Source of the DNA: Gluconobacter japonicus | Lineage (GTDB): Bacteria; Pseudomonadota; Alphaproteobacteria; Acetobacterales; Acetobacteraceae | Direction of reading: 5' to 3' | DNA: 64,000 bases | Assembly (NCBI RefSeq): GCF_002723975.1 | Contig: NZ_BEWO01000004.1 | Span: forward strand, 1-64,000 | Shown here: piece by piece, positions 53,391 through 64,000 of the stretch | Layout: each line of letters starts with the position of its first letter | Numbering within the stretch: the stretch's first letter is position 1 | Notes under the pieces: model-generated | Seen by the model: only the letters and a program-made list of their open reading frames with translations | Told to the model about the DNA's origin: nothing | Databases searched by the model: none | Translations under genes and position numbers: made by a program

Positions 53391-54815
53391 ATGTTCGGCC
53401 TGTCGGCTTTATTTCTTGCGCGCTTCCAGTTCGCGTTCACAGTCGGGTTTCACATCGTGTTCCCGGCATTCTCGATCGGGCTCGCTGCCTATCTTGCCGT
53501 TCTTGAAGGCCTCTGGCTCAAGACCGGACGCAGCGCTTACCTGGACCTCTTCAAATACTGGTTGAAAATCTTCTCCGTCGTCTTCGCGATGGGTGTGGTT
53601 TCCGGTCTGGTCATGTCCTACGAGTTTGGCACCAACTGGTCCCAGTTCTCGCAGAAGGCTGGCCCCATTCTTGGCCCGATGCTGGCCTATGAAGTGATGA
53701 CGGCCTTCTTCCTTGAAGCCGGGTTCCTCGGCGTCATGATGTTTGGCCTGAACCGCGTGGGCAAAGGACTGCATTTCGGTGCAACCTGCATGGTCTCGAT
53801 CGGCACGCTGATTTCCATGACGTGGATTCTCGCCTCCAACTCCTGGATGCAGACGCCACAGGGCTACATCATTGATGAAGCTACGGGGCGTTTCCTGCCG
53901 GGCAACTGGTGGCAGATCATCTTCAACCCGTCCTTCCCGTTCCGCCTCGTGCATATGGGACTGGCAGCCTTCCTGTCCGTCGCGTTCATCGTGGCTGGCG
54001 TCGCTGGCTGGCATCTGCTGAAGGCACGTCGTGAAGACCGTCAGGCGTCCGAACAGGTCCGCCTGATGTTCTCCATGGCTATGTGGATGGCCGCGATCGT
54101 TGCCCCGGTTCAGTTTCTGGCCGGTGACACGCAGGGTCTGAACACACTGGAATACCAGCCTGCCAAGATCGCCGCGATGGAAGGTGACTGGGAGTCCGAA
54201 GGTCGCGCGCCGGAAATCCTGTTCGGTATTCCGGACATGGAAAACGAGACGACGCACTACAAGGTCCAGATCCCGCTCCTCGGCTCCCTGATCCTGACGC
54301 ACAGCCTTGATGGCAAGGTGCCGGGCCTGAAGGACTATCCGAAGGATCTGCGCCCGTACTCGCCCCTGCTGTTCTTCTCCTTCCGCATCATGATCGCGCT
54401 TGGTTCGCTCATGGTTCTGGTGGGCCTGTGGTCCCTGTTCCTGCGCTGGAAGGGCAGCCTGTACGACAACGCTCTGCTGCATCGCGTGGCGCTCTGGATG
54501 TCTCCGGCGGGCTTCATCGCTCTGCTCTGCGGCTGGATCACGACGGAAGTGGGTCGTCAGCCATACACTGTTTACGGTCTGCTCAAGACATCTGACAGTG
54601 TGTCAGAAATCGCCCTGCCGAGCATGGCAACGTCCATGATCGCCTTCGTGATCGTGTACTTCATCGTTTTCACAGGCGGTATCACGATCCTGCTGCGCAG
54701 CTTTGCCCAGGAGCCTCATTCGGGTGAAGAGGGTCCGTCCGAGCACGAGCCGCACATGTCTGCCGGTACGACGCAGGTGTCTCACCATCCCCACAATGCT
54801 GGTCTGGCGGAGTAA
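53391..54815 (+). CDS. cioA: cyanide-insensitive quinol oxidase subunit I
   Basis: A 474-residue CydA-family subunit, short for the family, which is typical of the CIO branch with a short Q loop. Heme ligands are in FQFAFTVGFHIVFP and SYEFGTNWSQF regions, and GWITTEVGRQPYTVYG is conserved. It oxidises ubiquinol and reduces oxygen without pumping protons, supporting fast overflow oxidation in acetic acid bacteria. cioB follows after six bases. Confidence 0.94.
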   Translation: MFGLSALFLARFQFAFTVGFHIVFPAFSIGLAAYLAVLEGLWLKTGRSAYLDLFKYWLKIFSVVFAMGVVSGLVMSYEFGTNWSQFSQKAGPILGPMLAYEVMTAFFLEAGFLGVMMFGLNRVGKGLHFGATCMVSIGTLISMTWILASNSWMQTPQGYIIDEATGRFLPGNWWQIIFNPSFPFRLVHMGLAAFLSVAFIVAGVAGWHLLKARREDRQASEQVRLMFSMAMWMAAIVAPVQFLAGDTQGLNTLEYQPAKIAAMEGDWESEGRAPEILFGIPDMENETTHYKVQIPLLGSLILTHSLDGKVPGLKDYPKDLRPYSPLLFFSFRIMIALGSLMVLVGLWSLFLRWKGSLYDNALLHRVALWMSPAGFIALLCGWITTEVGRQPYTVYGLLKTSDSVSEIALPSMATSMIAFVIVYFIVFTGGITILLRSFAQEPHSGEEGPSEHEPHMSAGTTQVSHHPHNAGLAE

Positions 54816-54821
54816 GCGATC

Positions 54822-55847
54822 ATGACCGAATCCGCCGCCTTCTGGCTTCCCGTGGTCTGGGCCGTTCTCGCGGCCTCTGCCATCTTCCTCTACGTCATCC
54901 TTGACGGCTTTGACCTTGGCATCGGCGTCCTGTTCCTCAAGGAACGCGATCACGATCACCGCAACGTCATGGTCAACACGGTCGCTCCTGTCTGGGACGG
55001 CAACGAAACCTGGATGATCTTTGGGGGCGCCGCACTCTACGGCGTCTTCCCGGTCGCTTACGGCACGATCCTTCCCGCGCTGTACCTGCCGATCCTGTTC
55101 ATGCTGCTGGCTCTCATCCTGCGCGGCGTCTCTTTCGAGTTCCGCTTCAAGATGAAGTCCGCACGGTCACAGCTTTTCTGGGACGCATCGTTCTGCGGTG
55201 GCTCCATCGTCGCGGCGTTCATGCAGGGTGTCATCCTTGGCACGCTCGTTCAGGGCATCCCGGTCCAGAACAACGTCTTCGTTGGCACATCCCTCGACTG
55301 GGTCACGCCGTTTGCCCTGTTCTGTGGTGCTGCCGTGACCATCGGCTATGCGCTTCTAGGCTCCACATGGCTGATCTGGCGCTGTGAGGGCGAACTTCAA
55401 GACACAATGCGTCGCGTTTCCTACACGCTCGCAGGCCTGATGTTGCTGACGATCGTGGCTGTGTCCGTCTGGACGCCGCAGCTTCACACGACCTACATGC
55501 AACACTGGCTCGAATGGCCGCAGCTTGCTCTGGTTCTGCCGGTTCCGGTGGCTGTCGTAGCTGTTGCCGGGGCACTGTTCCTGGGCCTGCGTAACCGCAA
55601 GTCGCACCTGCTGCCGTTCATCTCGACGCTCGGTCTGTTCTTCCTGTGCTTCTCCGGACTGGGGATCAATGTCTGGCCGTACATCGTACCGCCGACCATC
55701 ACCATCTGGCAGGCTTCTTCCCCGCCGAGCAGTCAGGCTTTCGTCCTGTTTGGCGCCATGTTCCTGCTGCCGGTCATTCTCGGATACACGATCTATTCCT
55801 ATTACGTGTTCCGCGGAAAAGTGACAGCAGAGCATCACTACCACTGA
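54822..55847 (+). CDS. cioB: cyanide-insensitive quinol oxidase subunit II
   Basis: A 341-residue CydB-family subunit with multiple membrane helices and the family start VVWAVLAASAIFLYVILDGFDLGIG. It stabilises the CioA hemes. A DUF2474 peptide gene follows after 19 bases. Confidence 0.94.
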   Translation: MTESAAFWLPVVWAVLAASAIFLYVILDGFDLGIGVLFLKERDHDHRNVMVNTVAPVWDGNETWMIFGGAALYGVFPVAYGTILPALYLPILFMLLALILRGVSFEFRFKMKSARSQLFWDASFCGGSIVAAFMQGVILGTLVQGIPVQNNVFVGTSLDWVTPFALFCGAAVTIGYALLGSTWLIWRCEGELQDTMRRVSYTLAGLMLLTIVAVSVWTPQLHTTYMQHWLEWPQLALVLPVPVAVVAVAGALFLGLRNRKSHLLPFISTLGLFFLCFSGLGINVWPYIVPPTITIWQASSPPSSQAFVLFGAMFLLPVILGYTIYSYYVFRGKVTAEHHYH

Positions 55848-60371: not shown

Positions 60372-60857
60372 TCAACGCCCGGCCAGCCGCTGCAAACCCA
60401 GAAGAATGTCCTGCGGAGATGGCGGACAACCAGGAATAGACCGGCGAACCTGGGTCAAAGCCCTGAGCCCCCCGATCGTGGCATAACCCGATCCGAACAC
60501 ACCCCCATCGACAGCACACGCGCCTACAGCCACCAGACTTTTCCCCGGCGGCATGGCGTTCCAGACGCGCTCAAGCATTTGCACGCAGGCCCGACTCATA
60601 GCCCCCGTCACCAGCAGCCAGTCTGCATCTGCCGGATCTGCCACACGCCTGAACCCATACCGATCCAGCGCAAAAGCAGAACCACAAAGACTTTCCACTT
60701 CCATGGCACAGCCTTCGCAGCCACCGGTCTCCAGCACATACAGACTGATCATGTCATTGTGTACGGAAGCCTCTTTGTCCGCAGAGGCTCTCCAGCGGGA
60801 CGCATCCATAAAGGCATGAAGGACACTCAGCGGTCCGGTCTTCTGAAACACACTCAC
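60372..60857 (-). CDS. complex I NuoB/HyfI-like small subunit of Ehr-like complex
   Basis: A 161-residue protein with four Cys of a proximal 4Fe-4S cluster: TGGCEGCAMEV (CxxC, hydrogenase type), VGACAVDGGV and IPGCPPSP. It thus resembles the small subunit of group 4 hydrogenases and complex I. It overlaps the large-subunit gene by four bases. No HyfH/NuoI ferredoxin gene lies between them, unlike in hyf operons. Confidence 0.82.
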   Translation of the reverse strand: MSVFQKTGPLSVLHAFMDASRWRASADKEASVHNDMISLYVLETGGCEGCAMEVESLCGSAFALDRYGFRRVADPADADWLLVTGAMSRACVQMLERVWNAMPPGKSLVAVGACAVDGGVFGSGYATIGGLRALTQVRRSIPGCPPSPQDILLGLQRLAGR

Positions 60858-62293
60858 ATCGCCACTCCCGAGGGAGACAGAGCCAGAGACCTCAGAGCCG
60901 CAGGCAGACCCTCCGGCAGTTCTCCCTTCAAAATATCCGGGAGAACAGACAGTAACGAAACCGCTGGATCACGAGCCTGAACGGCCTCGATCTTTCCGTG
61001 CCTGAGCCTCACCCAGTACCAGATATCGCCGCGGGCACCTTCAGCAGCACCAATACCTTCCTGCGTCGCCTCAGGTGCGGGCTCGTCATCATCCATGCCG
61101 ATACTGCCCAGAATACGCTGAATCAAAGCCAGAGAGTCGCGGATCTCGTTCAGACGCAAAGCATCTCTCGCCGCGCCATCACCCTCACTTGATCCTGTCG
61201 AGCGCAAAGCATCCAGCCGCATCCCGGCTTCCCGACGACGCACATCCAGACTTCGCCCCGAGGCTCTCCCCACCAGTCCACCTACTGCAAATTCCCGCGC
61301 CTGTGTCGGTGTCAGAACAGCAAGACCCTTCAGTCGTGGCGCAAAAACGGATTGCAGTTCCCGGAGTTGGGCCATGCGGGGCTGCATTGCACTCACAACA
61401 GCCTGTGCCAGCGGAACGATTTCCAGTCCTGCGCGAAAACCATCACACCGCACCAGATCCGTCAGGCGGCGGGACACACCCTGTTCAGCACAGGCGAAAG
61501 CAATCGCCTCACGCGCATGTTCGCAATGCGTCGCCAAAAGCCCCGCATCCACGGCTCTGGCCGTTCGCGCCATATCAAACAGGTGAACAGACATCCGCTC
61601 GATTTCCAGCAGGATCATCCAGCAATCCCGAACACCTGGACCGGGCTGCAAGCCGCGAGCCTGAGCCACAGCCCGGCAGAACGCGACCGGATGCGCCACA
61701 AATCCTCCGGCGGTCATCCGCGACACCAAAGGTAAAGCCTCCTCAGGTGTAAGGCCGATCATCCGGTGCAGCACACCCCGATGCGCCAGCCCCGCATTGA
61801 CGGACACCGCTTGCACTCGCCCCCGAACGACATCAAAGGACAGCTCCAGCGGACCCGTCAGACCCGACTTTTCAGCAGGCAGAACAGTACGCCCCGGAAC
61901 AGGACGCGCCGCCTGACCACCCGGGCCGGGACGGGAAGAGAGTGGCCACGTAGCTTCCCACACTCCTTCATCCAATGCAGGCTGCCCCTCCCCGGAGGCC
62001 CCCATCGCCTCAACACCCCAGAGATCATAAGCCACCCGCTCGCCCCATTCCGCCGCCGGGAAACGGGAAGACGGCGCAAGGTAACGACGGTCTTCTACTG
62101 CCGTGCTCGCCATCAGGGGGCAATCGCCTTTAAGCAGCAGAACATAGACACGGTGTTCATCAGCCCAGCAGGACAGAAGCGGCAATGTCGCACCCGGGGC
62201 AGCCAACATGGCTTCCCACTGCTCTGCATCCAGAGAATAATGAGACAGCGCGACACGCTCCCCGCTTCGGATAACCTTTCCCATGTCGCTCAT
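60854..62293 (-). CDS. HyfG/NuoCD-like large subunit lacking NiFe ligands
   Basis: A 479-residue protein: an N-terminal NuoC-like part (to about 150, with VYVLLLKGDCPLMASTAVED) and a C-terminal NuoD/hydrogenase-large-subunit-like part (AGLAHRGVLHRMIGLTPEEA, RMTAGGFVAHPVAFCRAVAQ, LEIERMSVHLFDMARTA). The L1 CGIC position reads TAGG and the C terminus lacks the CxxC of L2, so no NiFe site can form. It is typical of Ehr complexes. It overlaps the upstream gene by four bases. Confidence 0.85.
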   Translation of the reverse strand: MSDMGKVIRSGERVALSHYSLDAEQWEAMLAAPGATLPLLSCWADEHRVYVLLLKGDCPLMASTAVEDRRYLAPSSRFPAAEWGERVAYDLWGVEAMGASGEGQPALDEGVWEATWPLSSRPGPGGQAARPVPGRTVLPAEKSGLTGPLELSFDVVRGRVQAVSVNAGLAHRGVLHRMIGLTPEEALPLVSRMTAGGFVAHPVAFCRAVAQARGLQPGPGVRDCWMILLEIERMSVHLFDMARTARAVDAGLLATHCEHAREAIAFACAEQGVSRRLTDLVRCDGFRAGLEIVPLAQAVVSAMQPRMAQLRELQSVFAPRLKGLAVLTPTQAREFAVGGLVGRASGRSLDVRRREAGMRLDALRSTGSSEGDGAARDALRLNEIRDSLALIQRILGSIGMDDDEPAPEATQEGIGAAEGARGDIWYWVRLRHGKIEAVQARDPAVSLLSVLPDILKGELPEGLPAALRSLALSPSGVAM

Positions 62294-63381
62294 GGCTGCC
62301 ACCCCGGCGTTGGATGCCACGTCAGCAGCAAAGGCCCGCACAGCCCGATCGCGAGAAGGGCAGCCTCAACCACCGGCACAATTTCGGCTTTCAATGCCAG
62401 ACCAGACGGCATCAATGTGGAAAAGCGAATTTGCCTCAATCCCGGTAACAGGCACACAATCATCAGAGCCAGAAGGAACGGTTCAAGAGACCGGCCTATT
62501 GCCAGAAGTGCGCAGAAGACCGGCCAAGGCGCCATCCCATCGGCAACAGATCGGTAATGGTCAGCATCTCCCTCCCGTTCCAGGACCGCCAGCCCCAGTG
62601 ACGTGATGAGCAGCAGCACAATCGCGCTACCTTCCCCGACGGCTGCCGCAATCGCCCCGAGAGCCGCCAGAACCGGCAGGAACTGCCCTCGCCCTTTCGA
62701 CTGCACGGCCATCTTCATGATGAGCGTTCCGAACCCCGCGACCAGAACCAGCAGATGAACAAGCGCATGATGATCAAGCCGAAGCATCAGAAGGATTGCT
62801 GCAAAGCGCAAACCCGTATCCAATAGAGCAGCCTCAGGCTCCGGAACGGGCGATGGCCCGAGACCGGCCATCATGCAAAGACCAACCGTCAGCAGAACAG
62901 GCCCAAGCGGAGACTGCTCCATGGAGAGCAGCGACGCCCCCAGAACGCCCAGAATGACGCCTCCCAGACGGGACCGCGCCATGTCCCAGACGATCGCCGC
63001 CTTCTGCACCCCGCGTCCTTCCCGCCACGCCAGCAGAACAGTCCCAGCCCCACACAGCACCGTCACGGCGAACGCCGAATGAACATTCAGCGCCATCAGG
63101 GCGCACCCTGTCACCAGAAAGGGCAGTATACGGCCAGTTCTATCCCTTGCAGGGGGTAGCAGCAGCGGCATAACGGCCACGGCACACGAACATGCCGCCG
63201 CCAGTGCATCTGCCCCTGGCATCAGCCAGACCGCAATCGGCGTCATGATCGCCCCGGCAATGGCGAATGTCAGACTGCTGGCGGCCTGACGGTTGGCGGG
63301 CGTAAGCATGAGCAGAAAGGCCGCCAGAAGCGGCCAGACCGTGACGGCAAACAATGTCCCGATCGGAGCAAGCGGATGCAT
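62290..63381 (-). CDS. HyfF/NuoN-like antiporter-type membrane subunit
   Basis: A 363-residue, multi-pass hydrophobic protein (about ten helices) with weak similarity in pattern to NuoL/M/N-type proton-translocating subunits; a membrane Lys (TLIMKMAVQSK) and acidic residue (LKAEIVPVVEAAL) lie in helices. It is shorter than typical HyfF. Its start overlaps the upstream stop (TGATG). Assignment rests largely on context. Confidence 0.7.
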   Translation of the reverse strand: MHPLAPIGTLFAVTVWPLLAAFLLMLTPANRQAASSLTFAIAGAIMTPIAVWLMPGADALAAACSCAVAVMPLLLPPARDRTGRILPFLVTGCALMALNVHSAFAVTVLCGAGTVLLAWREGRGVQKAAIVWDMARSRLGGVILGVLGASLLSMEQSPLGPVLLTVGLCMMAGLGPSPVPEPEAALLDTGLRFAAILLMLRLDHHALVHLLVLVAGFGTLIMKMAVQSKGRGQFLPVLAALGAIAAAVGEGSAIVLLLITSLGLAVLEREGDADHYRSVADGMAPWPVFCALLAIGRSLEPFLLALMIVCLLPGLRQIRFSTLMPSGLALKAEIVPVVEAALLAIGLCGPLLLTWHPTPGWQP

Positions 63382-63902
63382 CAGTTTTCCTCCACGCGGC
63401 GCCAGGCCAGACGCGGCAGCAACGTCACGCCCAGCGCACCCAGAACGCCCCAAAGCGCAACAGCCGCGGCAAACAACGGCCAGGATTGCAGGATGCACGC
63501 CATAACGATCAGACCGTCAGCCGCCACCAGAAGGCCCGTAAACTGCACAAGAGACGGCCCGAACGCCGCGCCACAAAGCCCGATCAGAACAACACCGGCA
63601 CCAAGAACAGGCGCAAGTCCCAGACTAGCTCCAGAGAGACCCAGCGCTAGCAACAGCAAAAGAGCCCCCACGACAGGCAATACAGCGCCGCGATCCGGCG
63701 CGTGAGGTGCAAAACGTCGCAGCCAGATCCAGGCGCCAATATTCAGCCCGACCAACGTAACGGACGTCAGCAGCGCAAGAAGACCGCCACAGACCGTCGC
63801 CCCGGCAAACGCACAGACCAACCCGTACAGCGGTAATCCCCGTCCATCCCGGCCCAGGCCAGCCAGCGCCAGAAGAAGGAGAACGCCAAACCCGACAATC
63901 AT
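63381..63902 (-). CDS. HyfE-like hydrophobic subunit
   Basis: A 173-residue membrane protein with about six helices, corresponding in size and place to HyfE (NuoK-like). It overlaps the upstream partial gene by four bases (ATGA). Sequence alone gives little family signal; the operon order supports the call. Confidence 0.65.
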   Translation of the reverse strand: MIVGFGVLLLLALAGLGRDGRGLPLYGLVCAFAGATVCGGLLALLTSVTLVGLNIGAWIWLRRFAPHAPDRGAVLPVVGALLLLLALGLSGASLGLAPVLGAGVVLIGLCGAAFGPSLVQFTGLLVAADGLIVMACILQSWPLFAAAVALWGVLGALGVTLLPRLAWRRVEEN

Positions 63903-64000
63903 GTCGCGAACCTCCCAGCCAGTGCCAGAAGAAGCGCTACACCTGCGAACAGTGCCGTCAGCCGTTCACTGCGCTCCTGCGCTGTCAGCCTCAATGCCAC
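63899..64000 (-). CDS. C-terminal end of a membrane protein, partial
   Basis: Only the last 33 residues are in the window (ending TALFAGVALLLALAGRFAT), a charged stretch followed by one membrane helix. By operon order it may be an antiporter- or NuoH-like subunit of the same complex. The 5' part lies outside. Confidence 0.55.
   Translation of the reverse strand: MALRLTAQERSERLTALFAGVALLLALAGRFAT

Follow-up and report, generated by a model that had tools for sequence, protein, structure and literature searches.

An Ehr-type operon of Gluconobacter japonicus whose membrane subunits appear to lack the known proton path

What task is left to a relative of complex I that has neither a NiFe site nor the residues through which such complexes move protons? 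This question is raised by the right-hand end of a 64,000-base stretch of Gluconobacter japonicus DNA (hereafter the window, bases 1-64000 of contig C4 in a source genome of 3.16 Mb and 75 contigs), where an operon on the minus strand encodes a complex of the type known as Ehr, for energy-converting or Ech hydrogenase-related. Four papers describe Ehr complexes from Geobacter sulfurreducens, comammox Nitrospira, and Sulfobacillus as lacking the Ni/Fe ligands, suspected of charge translocation, and of unknown function (PMC7894505, PMC10284858, PMC4378227, PMC6349859). On balance, we favor the explanation that the product of this operon descends from Ehr but does not pump, and that it probably acts as a membrane complex responsive to redox state. 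The parts of this statement differ in strength: it is very probable that the complex no longer pumps by the known route, and a redox-responsive role, as a sensor or an electron valve, is possible and is offered tentatively.

The operon and its large subunit

An earlier, sequence-only reading of the window had described linked genes with overlapping ends, two of them NuoB- and NuoCD-like, and had advised following the DNA to the right. In the continuation (L002, G000:C4:58000-77999), the operon runs ∼2 kb beyond the window's right end and comprises six genes, transcribed in the order B-C-E-F-G-I, with adjoining genes overlapping by one to a few bases. The window takes in only the 3' end of C and nothing of B, and the order is that of HyfB-C-E-F-G-I in hydrogenase-4 and formate hydrogenlyase (FHL). 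The two peripheral subunits are as proposed: the small subunit I (NuoB/HycG/HyfI-like, 161 residues, positions 60372-60857, minus strand) matches PF01058 at E 5.4e-24, and the large subunit G (NuoCD/HycE/HyfG-like, 479 residues, ATG at 62293, positions 60854-62293, minus strand) matches PF00346 at E 2.1e-12. The absence of a HyfH gene had also been pointed out correctly, and, when the operon is compared with E. coli hyfABCDEFGHI, HyfA and HyfD are likewise without a counterpart in it.

The same six genes occur in identical order in all six other Gluconobacter loci. They came from a scan of genome contigs in which 58 stretches matched the search pattern and six encoded a relative, all of them Gluconobacter, with large subunits 64-92% identical to that of the window. 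For a wider comparison, we read 60 loci: L002, L003-L008 of Gluconobacter, and, from sampled genomes of the family Acetobacteraceae other than these, a further 53, with two 100-base stretches left uncounted. These loci were classed as canonical (14), intermediate (two, L089 and L099), or derived (44, including the window).

The large subunit had been read as carrying TAGG in place of the CGIC of NiFe hydrogenases and as lacking the C-terminal CxxC, and the complex had been assigned on this ground to the Ehr type and not to the hydrogenases, an assignment that intact cysteines or a separate NiFe large subunit would overturn. Neither was found. Aligned with HycE, HyfG, NuoCD, and the canonical Ehr relatives, the window protein has TAGG and SPSG at the columns of CGIC and CYSC in E. 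coli HycE and HyfG, so both NiFe Cys pairs are replaced. A profile of 29 large-subunit relatives (A5) matches HycE (7z0s_E) at E 6.4e-55. PF00346 has a single match in the source genome, which is the operon's own large subunit, and neither PF00374 nor HypD has a match there at E 1e-3; in a control search, HypD was found in four of 14 named genomes. Because the NiFe ligand columns are changed and there is no PF00374, no HypD, and no other PF00346 match, the complex is not a hydrogenase; the four Cys ligands and the maturation system of a group 4 [NiFe] hydrogenase are both missing.

Complex I is not a fitting description either. The source genome gives no apparent sign of a complex I, since it has the one PF00346 match only, and no NADH input module (NuoE/F/G) is encoded in the operon, the rest of the genome not having been searched for NuoE/F/G. 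The substrate cavity of the large subunit is altered as well. A His in the GPxH loop is common to HycE, HyfG, NuoCD, and all 14 canonical loci; it is kept in four of the 44 derived loci and is replaced by K142 in the window. The column of NuoCD H224, a quinone-site His, holds T146 in the window, and several cavity residues common to HycE, HyfG, and canonical Ehr are lost. Thus, neither an input module in the operon nor the quinone site of complex I was found. We had considered that the window protein might keep the quinone His of complex I as its conserved H171; column mapping rejected this, placing H171 in an HRG motif common to HycE and HyfG. Where NiFe was once bound, the derived loci vary at the first pair of positions (T, S, A, D, N, and others), whereas the C-terminal pair is mostly Ser (29/44) and Gly (35/44). 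A further 37 positions reach 90% conservation or more in the canonical and derived classes alike.

Proton-path residues of the membrane subunits

The sequence-only reading had labeled the membrane genes as antiporter-like, HyfE-like, and partial. F (363 residues, positions 62290-63381, minus strand) and E (173 residues, 63381-63902, minus strand) are HyfF/NuoN-like and HyfE-like by descent; C, which is HycD/HyfC/NuoH-like, has its 3' end at 63899-64000 in the window, and the whole gene (286 residues, minus strand) is at L002:5900-6760, equal to G000:C4:63899-64759. B (∼434 residues) is outside the window at G000:C4:64756-66060 (L002:6760-8061), also on the minus strand. The frame of B has no ATG, GTG, or TTG at its start (L002:8059-8061, G000:C4:66058-66060); an ACC-CTG is conserved there in five loci (L002, L003, L005, L007, and L008), which suggests that B may use a CTG start codon.

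Pfam gave no match for B, C, and E of the operon at E up to 10, four matches far under the cut-off for F (best E 0.032), and none over the cut-off for ten membrane proteins from five relatives. At the matching gene positions of the canonical locus L072, B and F match PF00361 (Proton_antipo_M; 1.9e-48 and 1.7e-47) and C matches PF00146 (NADHdh; 1.9e-35); F of canonical L068 matches PF00361 at 1.5e-43. In that last locus, B seems cut or split (L068:5640-6926), its 428-residue open frame being without the N-terminal half. A profile of 25 C proteins (A4) matches the FHL subunit HycD (7z0s_D) at E 7.9e-27, and for 24 F proteins the profile match is to Nqo14 (4he8_N), with E 5.6e-16. Both profiles include canonical members, and separate class-only profiles were therefore also compared with hhalign. 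Between the acetic-acid-bacterial and canonical profiles, G and I scored 100% and C 97.4%. The remaining subunits were followed stepwise through two intermediate groups, with scores of 97.0, 99.9, and 100% for B, 99.0, 97.1, and 99.9% for F, and 98.4, 53.6, and 98.3% for E, the middle E group scoring 88.4% with the canonical one. Two putative cytochrome bd-like proteins of the window, used as negative controls, never rose above 1.0%. By this stepwise comparison via intermediates, together with their place in the gene order, B, E, and F go back to HyfB-, HyfE-, and HyfF-like ancestors and have diverged beyond direct reach. The early labels hold by this route, and not by any Pfam match over the cut-off.

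Particular residues of complex I and of HyfB, HyfF, HyfE, and HycD are held to carry protons. In the canonical loci, F keeps the HyfF residues Glu in transmembrane helix (TM) 5, Lys in TM7, His in TM7b, Asn in TM8, a second His, and Lys in TM12 in 14 of 14 cases, and the TM11 His in 13. Across the 44 derived loci, the TM7 Lys, TM8 Asn, second His, and TM12 Lys are each found in none, the TM11 His in one, the TM5 Glu in two, and the TM7b His in four; in the window, F is missing the TM5 Glu, the TM7 Lys, and the TM12 Lys/His. Ten positions of B (E166, K247, H254, H261, K278, E335, H369, H373, K377, and E432) are each present in 11 or all of the 12 canonical rows and in zero or one of 42 derived rows, and K76 and E167 of E are kept in 11/11 canonical and 0/35 derived rows; these counts leave out loci where no usable B or E could be called and include some near-copies. 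In C, the carboxylate loop is kept in canonical loci and is missing in the window; in the derived loci its acidic columns, which lie in a gap-rich stretch, are retained in 0, 4, 7, and 10 of 44.

Neighboring residues show these alignments to be in register at the decisive points. In the B motif P...GFxxEW, P238, G242, F243, and W247 are present in 17-18 of 18 acetic-acid-bacterial and 12/12 canonical sequences and the Glu is lost. D107, R474, and R644 of B are retained in 35, 31, and 32 of the 42 derived rows. In F, G167, G173, and L174 stay, and the intervening Lys is Met171 in the window.

A tree of the large subunit was built from 59 rows (56 loci plus HycE, HyfG, and NuoCD, with the near-copies L004, L006, L054, and L061 dropped) by a quick method with support from the Shimodaira-Hasegawa-like approximate likelihood ratio test (SH-aLRT) only. 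The 40 derived rows form one clade (SH-aLRT 98) nested among canonical Ehr rows, in a tree where 15 of 56 inner branches are open and NuoCD, L067, and L059 are long branches. Intermediate L099 is the sister of the derived clade (support 90). Intermediate L089 stands elsewhere, beside canonical L088, and shows an apparently independent, partial erosion of proton-path residues within the canonical group. The simplest reading would be a single loss of these residues, retained since, with a second erosion under way in L089. The sequences show that the complex derives from an Ehr with the HyfB-C-E-F-G-I layout, whose living canonical relatives are already without NiFe ligands; on the line to the acetic acid bacteria, one clade has lost the proton residues of B, E, and F, the carboxylate loop of C, and several residues of the large-subunit cavity.

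The derived form of F was also traced with a profile of its own (A9). At E 1e-15, hits came from 63 of 299 family genomes, spread over 19 of 102 genera and including seven genomes of Gluconobacter and seven of genus g33, which has genomes of 1.9-2.0 Mb; neither genus is among the 20 listed of the 236 genomes without a match. In a class-wide sample of 289 genomes, A9 matches three of the family and, weakly, two others (1.9e-9 and 3.9e-6) at E 1e-5. The profile misses some derived members, as G100, G157, and G200, of the genus of L066, were not matched. One in-frame stop was flagged in seven of the 63 matches; in the genome of L055 it is, by coordinates, the gene's own stop codon.

Could the complex still translocate ions, as the sequence-only reading had thought possible? 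In such an enzyme, electrons would pass from a donor to an acceptor and the membrane arm would pump by a rearranged path. The gene layout equals that of canonical Ehr and of E. coli hyf minus A, D, and H, C matches HycD by profile, the core of the small and large subunits is conserved, and published Ehr is suspected of coupling redox chemistry to charge translocation (PMC6349859). Against this, the TM5 Glu, TM7 Lys, TM8, and TM12 residues are gone from both antiporter-like subunits across the clade, as are the Lys and Glu of E and the carboxylate loop of C, all of which the canonical relatives keep; F and B are also shortened (363 residues versus 526 in HyfF, ∼434 versus 672). With these residues and several cavity residues missing, ion translocation is not supported, and we regard it as quite improbable.

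Several points nevertheless weigh against the reading that pumping has ceased. The acetic-acid-bacterial group has gained some conserved ionizable residues (H251, D342, and R412 of B, D217 and R282 of C, D40, R42, and R185 of E, and R138 of F), and protons may be transferred by water chains or by other residues. Single carboxylate columns of C retain the residue of the canonical loci in as many as 10 of the 44 derived ones. Residue columns in membrane proteins this divergent would depend on the alignment: direct comparison of the acetic-acid-bacterial and canonical profiles scored 31.8% for B, 9.4% for E, and 0.7% for F, so that no homology was found for F, and the chain for E has its mid-to-early step at just 53.6%. 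Structures predicted from seven-row alignments were unusable, with a mean predicted local distance difference test score (pLDDT) of 49.8 for F and 40.9 for the large subunit. Finally, all observed cases of the loss come from a single family.

The iron-sulfur cluster, selection, and a possible role

The small subunit of the window has, as the first reading of the letters had it, four [4Fe-4S] ligands, C47, C50, C114, and C144 (in CEGC, VGAC, and IPGC); they align with Cys of E. coli HycG and HyfI. All four are kept in 14/14 canonical loci, in both intermediate loci, and in 35 of the 38 derived loci whose stretch includes the gene (L058 was scored from the uncut protein, which has all four), and the surrounding Gly and Pro residues are retained. 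The gene lies outside the stretch in six loci (L045, L048, L049, L051, L065, and L067). When whole genomes were searched, each of the 16 tried proved to have a small subunit, which is far from the large subunit in 11 of them, and 14 gave a second, weaker NuoB-like match; the displaced copies L079, L080, and L082-L084 have four Cys in 5/5. The idea that Acetobacter-like genomes had lost the small subunit was thus rejected, the gene being relocated.

The surroundings of the relocated gene were also recorded. In Acetobacter-like genomes it adjoins a NUDIX gene and/or a gene for an NrtR-type regulator, as checked with Pfam in L078 (NUDIX), L081 (NrtR), and L082 (both) and judged by eye in L079, L083, and L084; none was recognized in L080. 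In L082 (682-2879), the small-subunit gene overlaps the regulator by four bases. In a small-genome relative (L042:12520-16930), it lies 4 kb downstream, past a TonB-dependent receptor gene and a putative diacylglycerol kinase-like gene.

Retention of the cluster ligands would fit a non-pumping electron-transfer enzyme, in which a cytosolic donor reduces the single [4Fe-4S] cluster and this in turn a quinone or small acceptor, as a safety valve in a respiratory chain without complex I. The retained Cys with their Gly and Pro surroundings, and a source genome in which no complex I large subunit was seen, are in its favor. However, the GPxH His is kept in just four of the 44 derived loci and the NuoCD H224 column is T146, a relay ferredoxin is missing from the operon, and the complex is also kept where a second, NuoB-like match exists (14/16 genomes). 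We consider such an enzyme rather unlikely.

The three exceptions among the derived loci belong to one genus (L066, L085, and L086), in which three of the four Cys are replaced in 3/3 species and the operon is kept; the only other small-subunit match found in this genus is NuoB-like. The ratio of nonsynonymous to synonymous substitution rates (dN/dS) in this genus was measured for five genes and lies at 0.12-0.14 in G and at 0.22-0.38 in B, C, F, and I. That a complex with three of four Cys lost is kept speaks against a universal redox role and would suit a structural or regulatory membrane assembly without electron transfer, where the cluster, if kept, merely stabilizes the small subunit. It would also suit such an assembly that the conserved columns of the membrane subunits are mainly Gly, Pro, Trp, and Leu. 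Yet all other derived loci read retain the four ligands, and the exceptional genus is under weaker selection and may be losing the complex, which leaves this explanation doubtful to about the same degree as an electron-transfer enzyme. The membrane and peripheral subunits seem to have been inherited jointly through the acetic acid bacteria and their relatives, with the iron-sulfur ligands gone in the one genus.

Whether the complex does anything at all can be asked from its rates of change. Against L003, dN/dS is 0.100 for B, 0.103 for C, 0.007 for E, 0.051 for F, 0.062 for G, and 0.074 for I, and against L005 it is 0.140, 0.125, 0.035, 0.054, 0.070, and 0.084 in the same order; E is the slowest-evolving subunit in both. 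The flanking controls gave 0.073 and 0.057 (pepA) and 0.057 and 0.066 (aldo/keto reductase) against L003 and L005, respectively. L003 and L005 are the two nearest of the loci compared; the ratios against L005 are rough, as the operon's dS exceeds 1 in that comparison, and pairs at greater distance are saturated. Purifying selection acts on all six genes, and these low ratios disfavor a pseudogene operon; together with the same six-gene order in 6/6 other Gluconobacter loci, they argue that the operon is not a product of chance. Slow decay of a dispensable relic could be read into the fast divergence of the membrane subunits and the relocation of the small-subunit gene in several genera. We judge it highly unlikely, given that the ratios of 0.007-0.14 are close to those of the flanking controls (0.057-0.073), except for B and C (0.10-0.14), and that F was found in the seven Gluconobacter genomes and the seven 1.9-2.0 Mb genomes of g33. 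A complex I relative maintained in this way probably does a job different from proton pumping.

We return to a redox-responsive membrane complex, a sensor or electron valve, which we think more likely than an energy-conserving enzyme. In such a complex, the [4Fe-4S] cluster of the small subunit would be made and would change redox state, exchanging electrons directly with a cytosolic partner; direct contact is proposed because the operon has no gene for a HyfH/HyfA relay. The membrane part would anchor the complex or transmit the redox change without moving ions. It is quite possible, if short of probable, that a whole complex I-type assembly has here been turned from energy conversion to another task, redox-responsive or scaffolding, with its NiFe site gone, its cavity degraded, and its proton channels no longer recognizable.

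Neighboring genes, related systems, and meaning for the family

The genes around the operon were named by reading their sequences. Upstream on the same strand are a putative aldo/keto reductase-like gene and a putative pepA, and downstream are a putative ROK-type kinase gene and a putative phosphatidylserine synthase-like gene. Further away in the window, at 53391-55847, two adjacent genes encode the putative subunits of a cytochrome bd-type quinol oxidase that served as negative controls.

Mbh and Mbs of Thermococcales keep their channel residues. The large subunit and C match these systems by profile (6cfw and 6u8y); unlike them, the window operon has no Mrp-like extra subunits and is missing channel residues. 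With E. coli hydrogenase-4 (hyfABCDEFGHI) and FHL-1 (Hyc; 7z0s), it shares the B-C-E-F-G-I order and profile matches to HycE and HycD, but it is without the NiFe ligands, HyfA, HyfD, and HyfH, its genome has no HypD match, and its B and F are about a third shorter than those of hydrogenase-4. Complex I (NuoB, NuoCD, NuoH, NuoL/M/N, and NuoK) has shared ancestry with it and N2-like [4Fe-4S] ligands in the NuoB-like subunit, whereas the operon has no NuoE/F/G, has a Thr at the H224 column, and is missing channel residues.

The closest likeness is to Ehr. Ehr and the window complex have in common large and small subunits of the group 4 hydrogenase/complex I kind that carry no NiFe CxxC, as well as NuoL-, NuoH-, and HyfE-like membrane subunits. 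Homologous large and small subunits, the lack of a NiFe CxxC, and proximal [4Fe-4S] ligands were all found here, and so were the NuoH-like and antiporter-like subunits, C by profile and B, E, and F via intermediates only. The ion-translocation residues expected in the membrane subunits of an Ehr were not, and because they are missing we file the complex as a descendant or variant of Ehr and not as a working Ehr pump. In this it differs from the canonical Ehr of its own family, as the window clade has lost proton-path residues in B, C, E, and F along with cavity residues in its large subunit. Among open-licence papers, we found none that deals with such an operon, Ehr or hydrogenase-4-like, in acetic acid bacteria, Gluconobacter included, and none on an Ehr stripped of its proton path; in two papers (PMC4378227 and PMC2621215), "Gluconobacter" and "group 4 hydrogenase" occur in unconnected places. 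Ehr complexes as such are already known, and what appears to be new here is an Ehr descendant without proton-path residues.

A family with genera that keep and genera that have lost these residues separates pumping from the complex's other function, and this separation makes the other function directly testable in the genetically tractable Gluconobacter. If our explanation is true, the Acetobacteraceae would hold a complex I relative that survives without the known coupling machinery, which would bear on how the peripheral and membrane parts of such complexes join and part.

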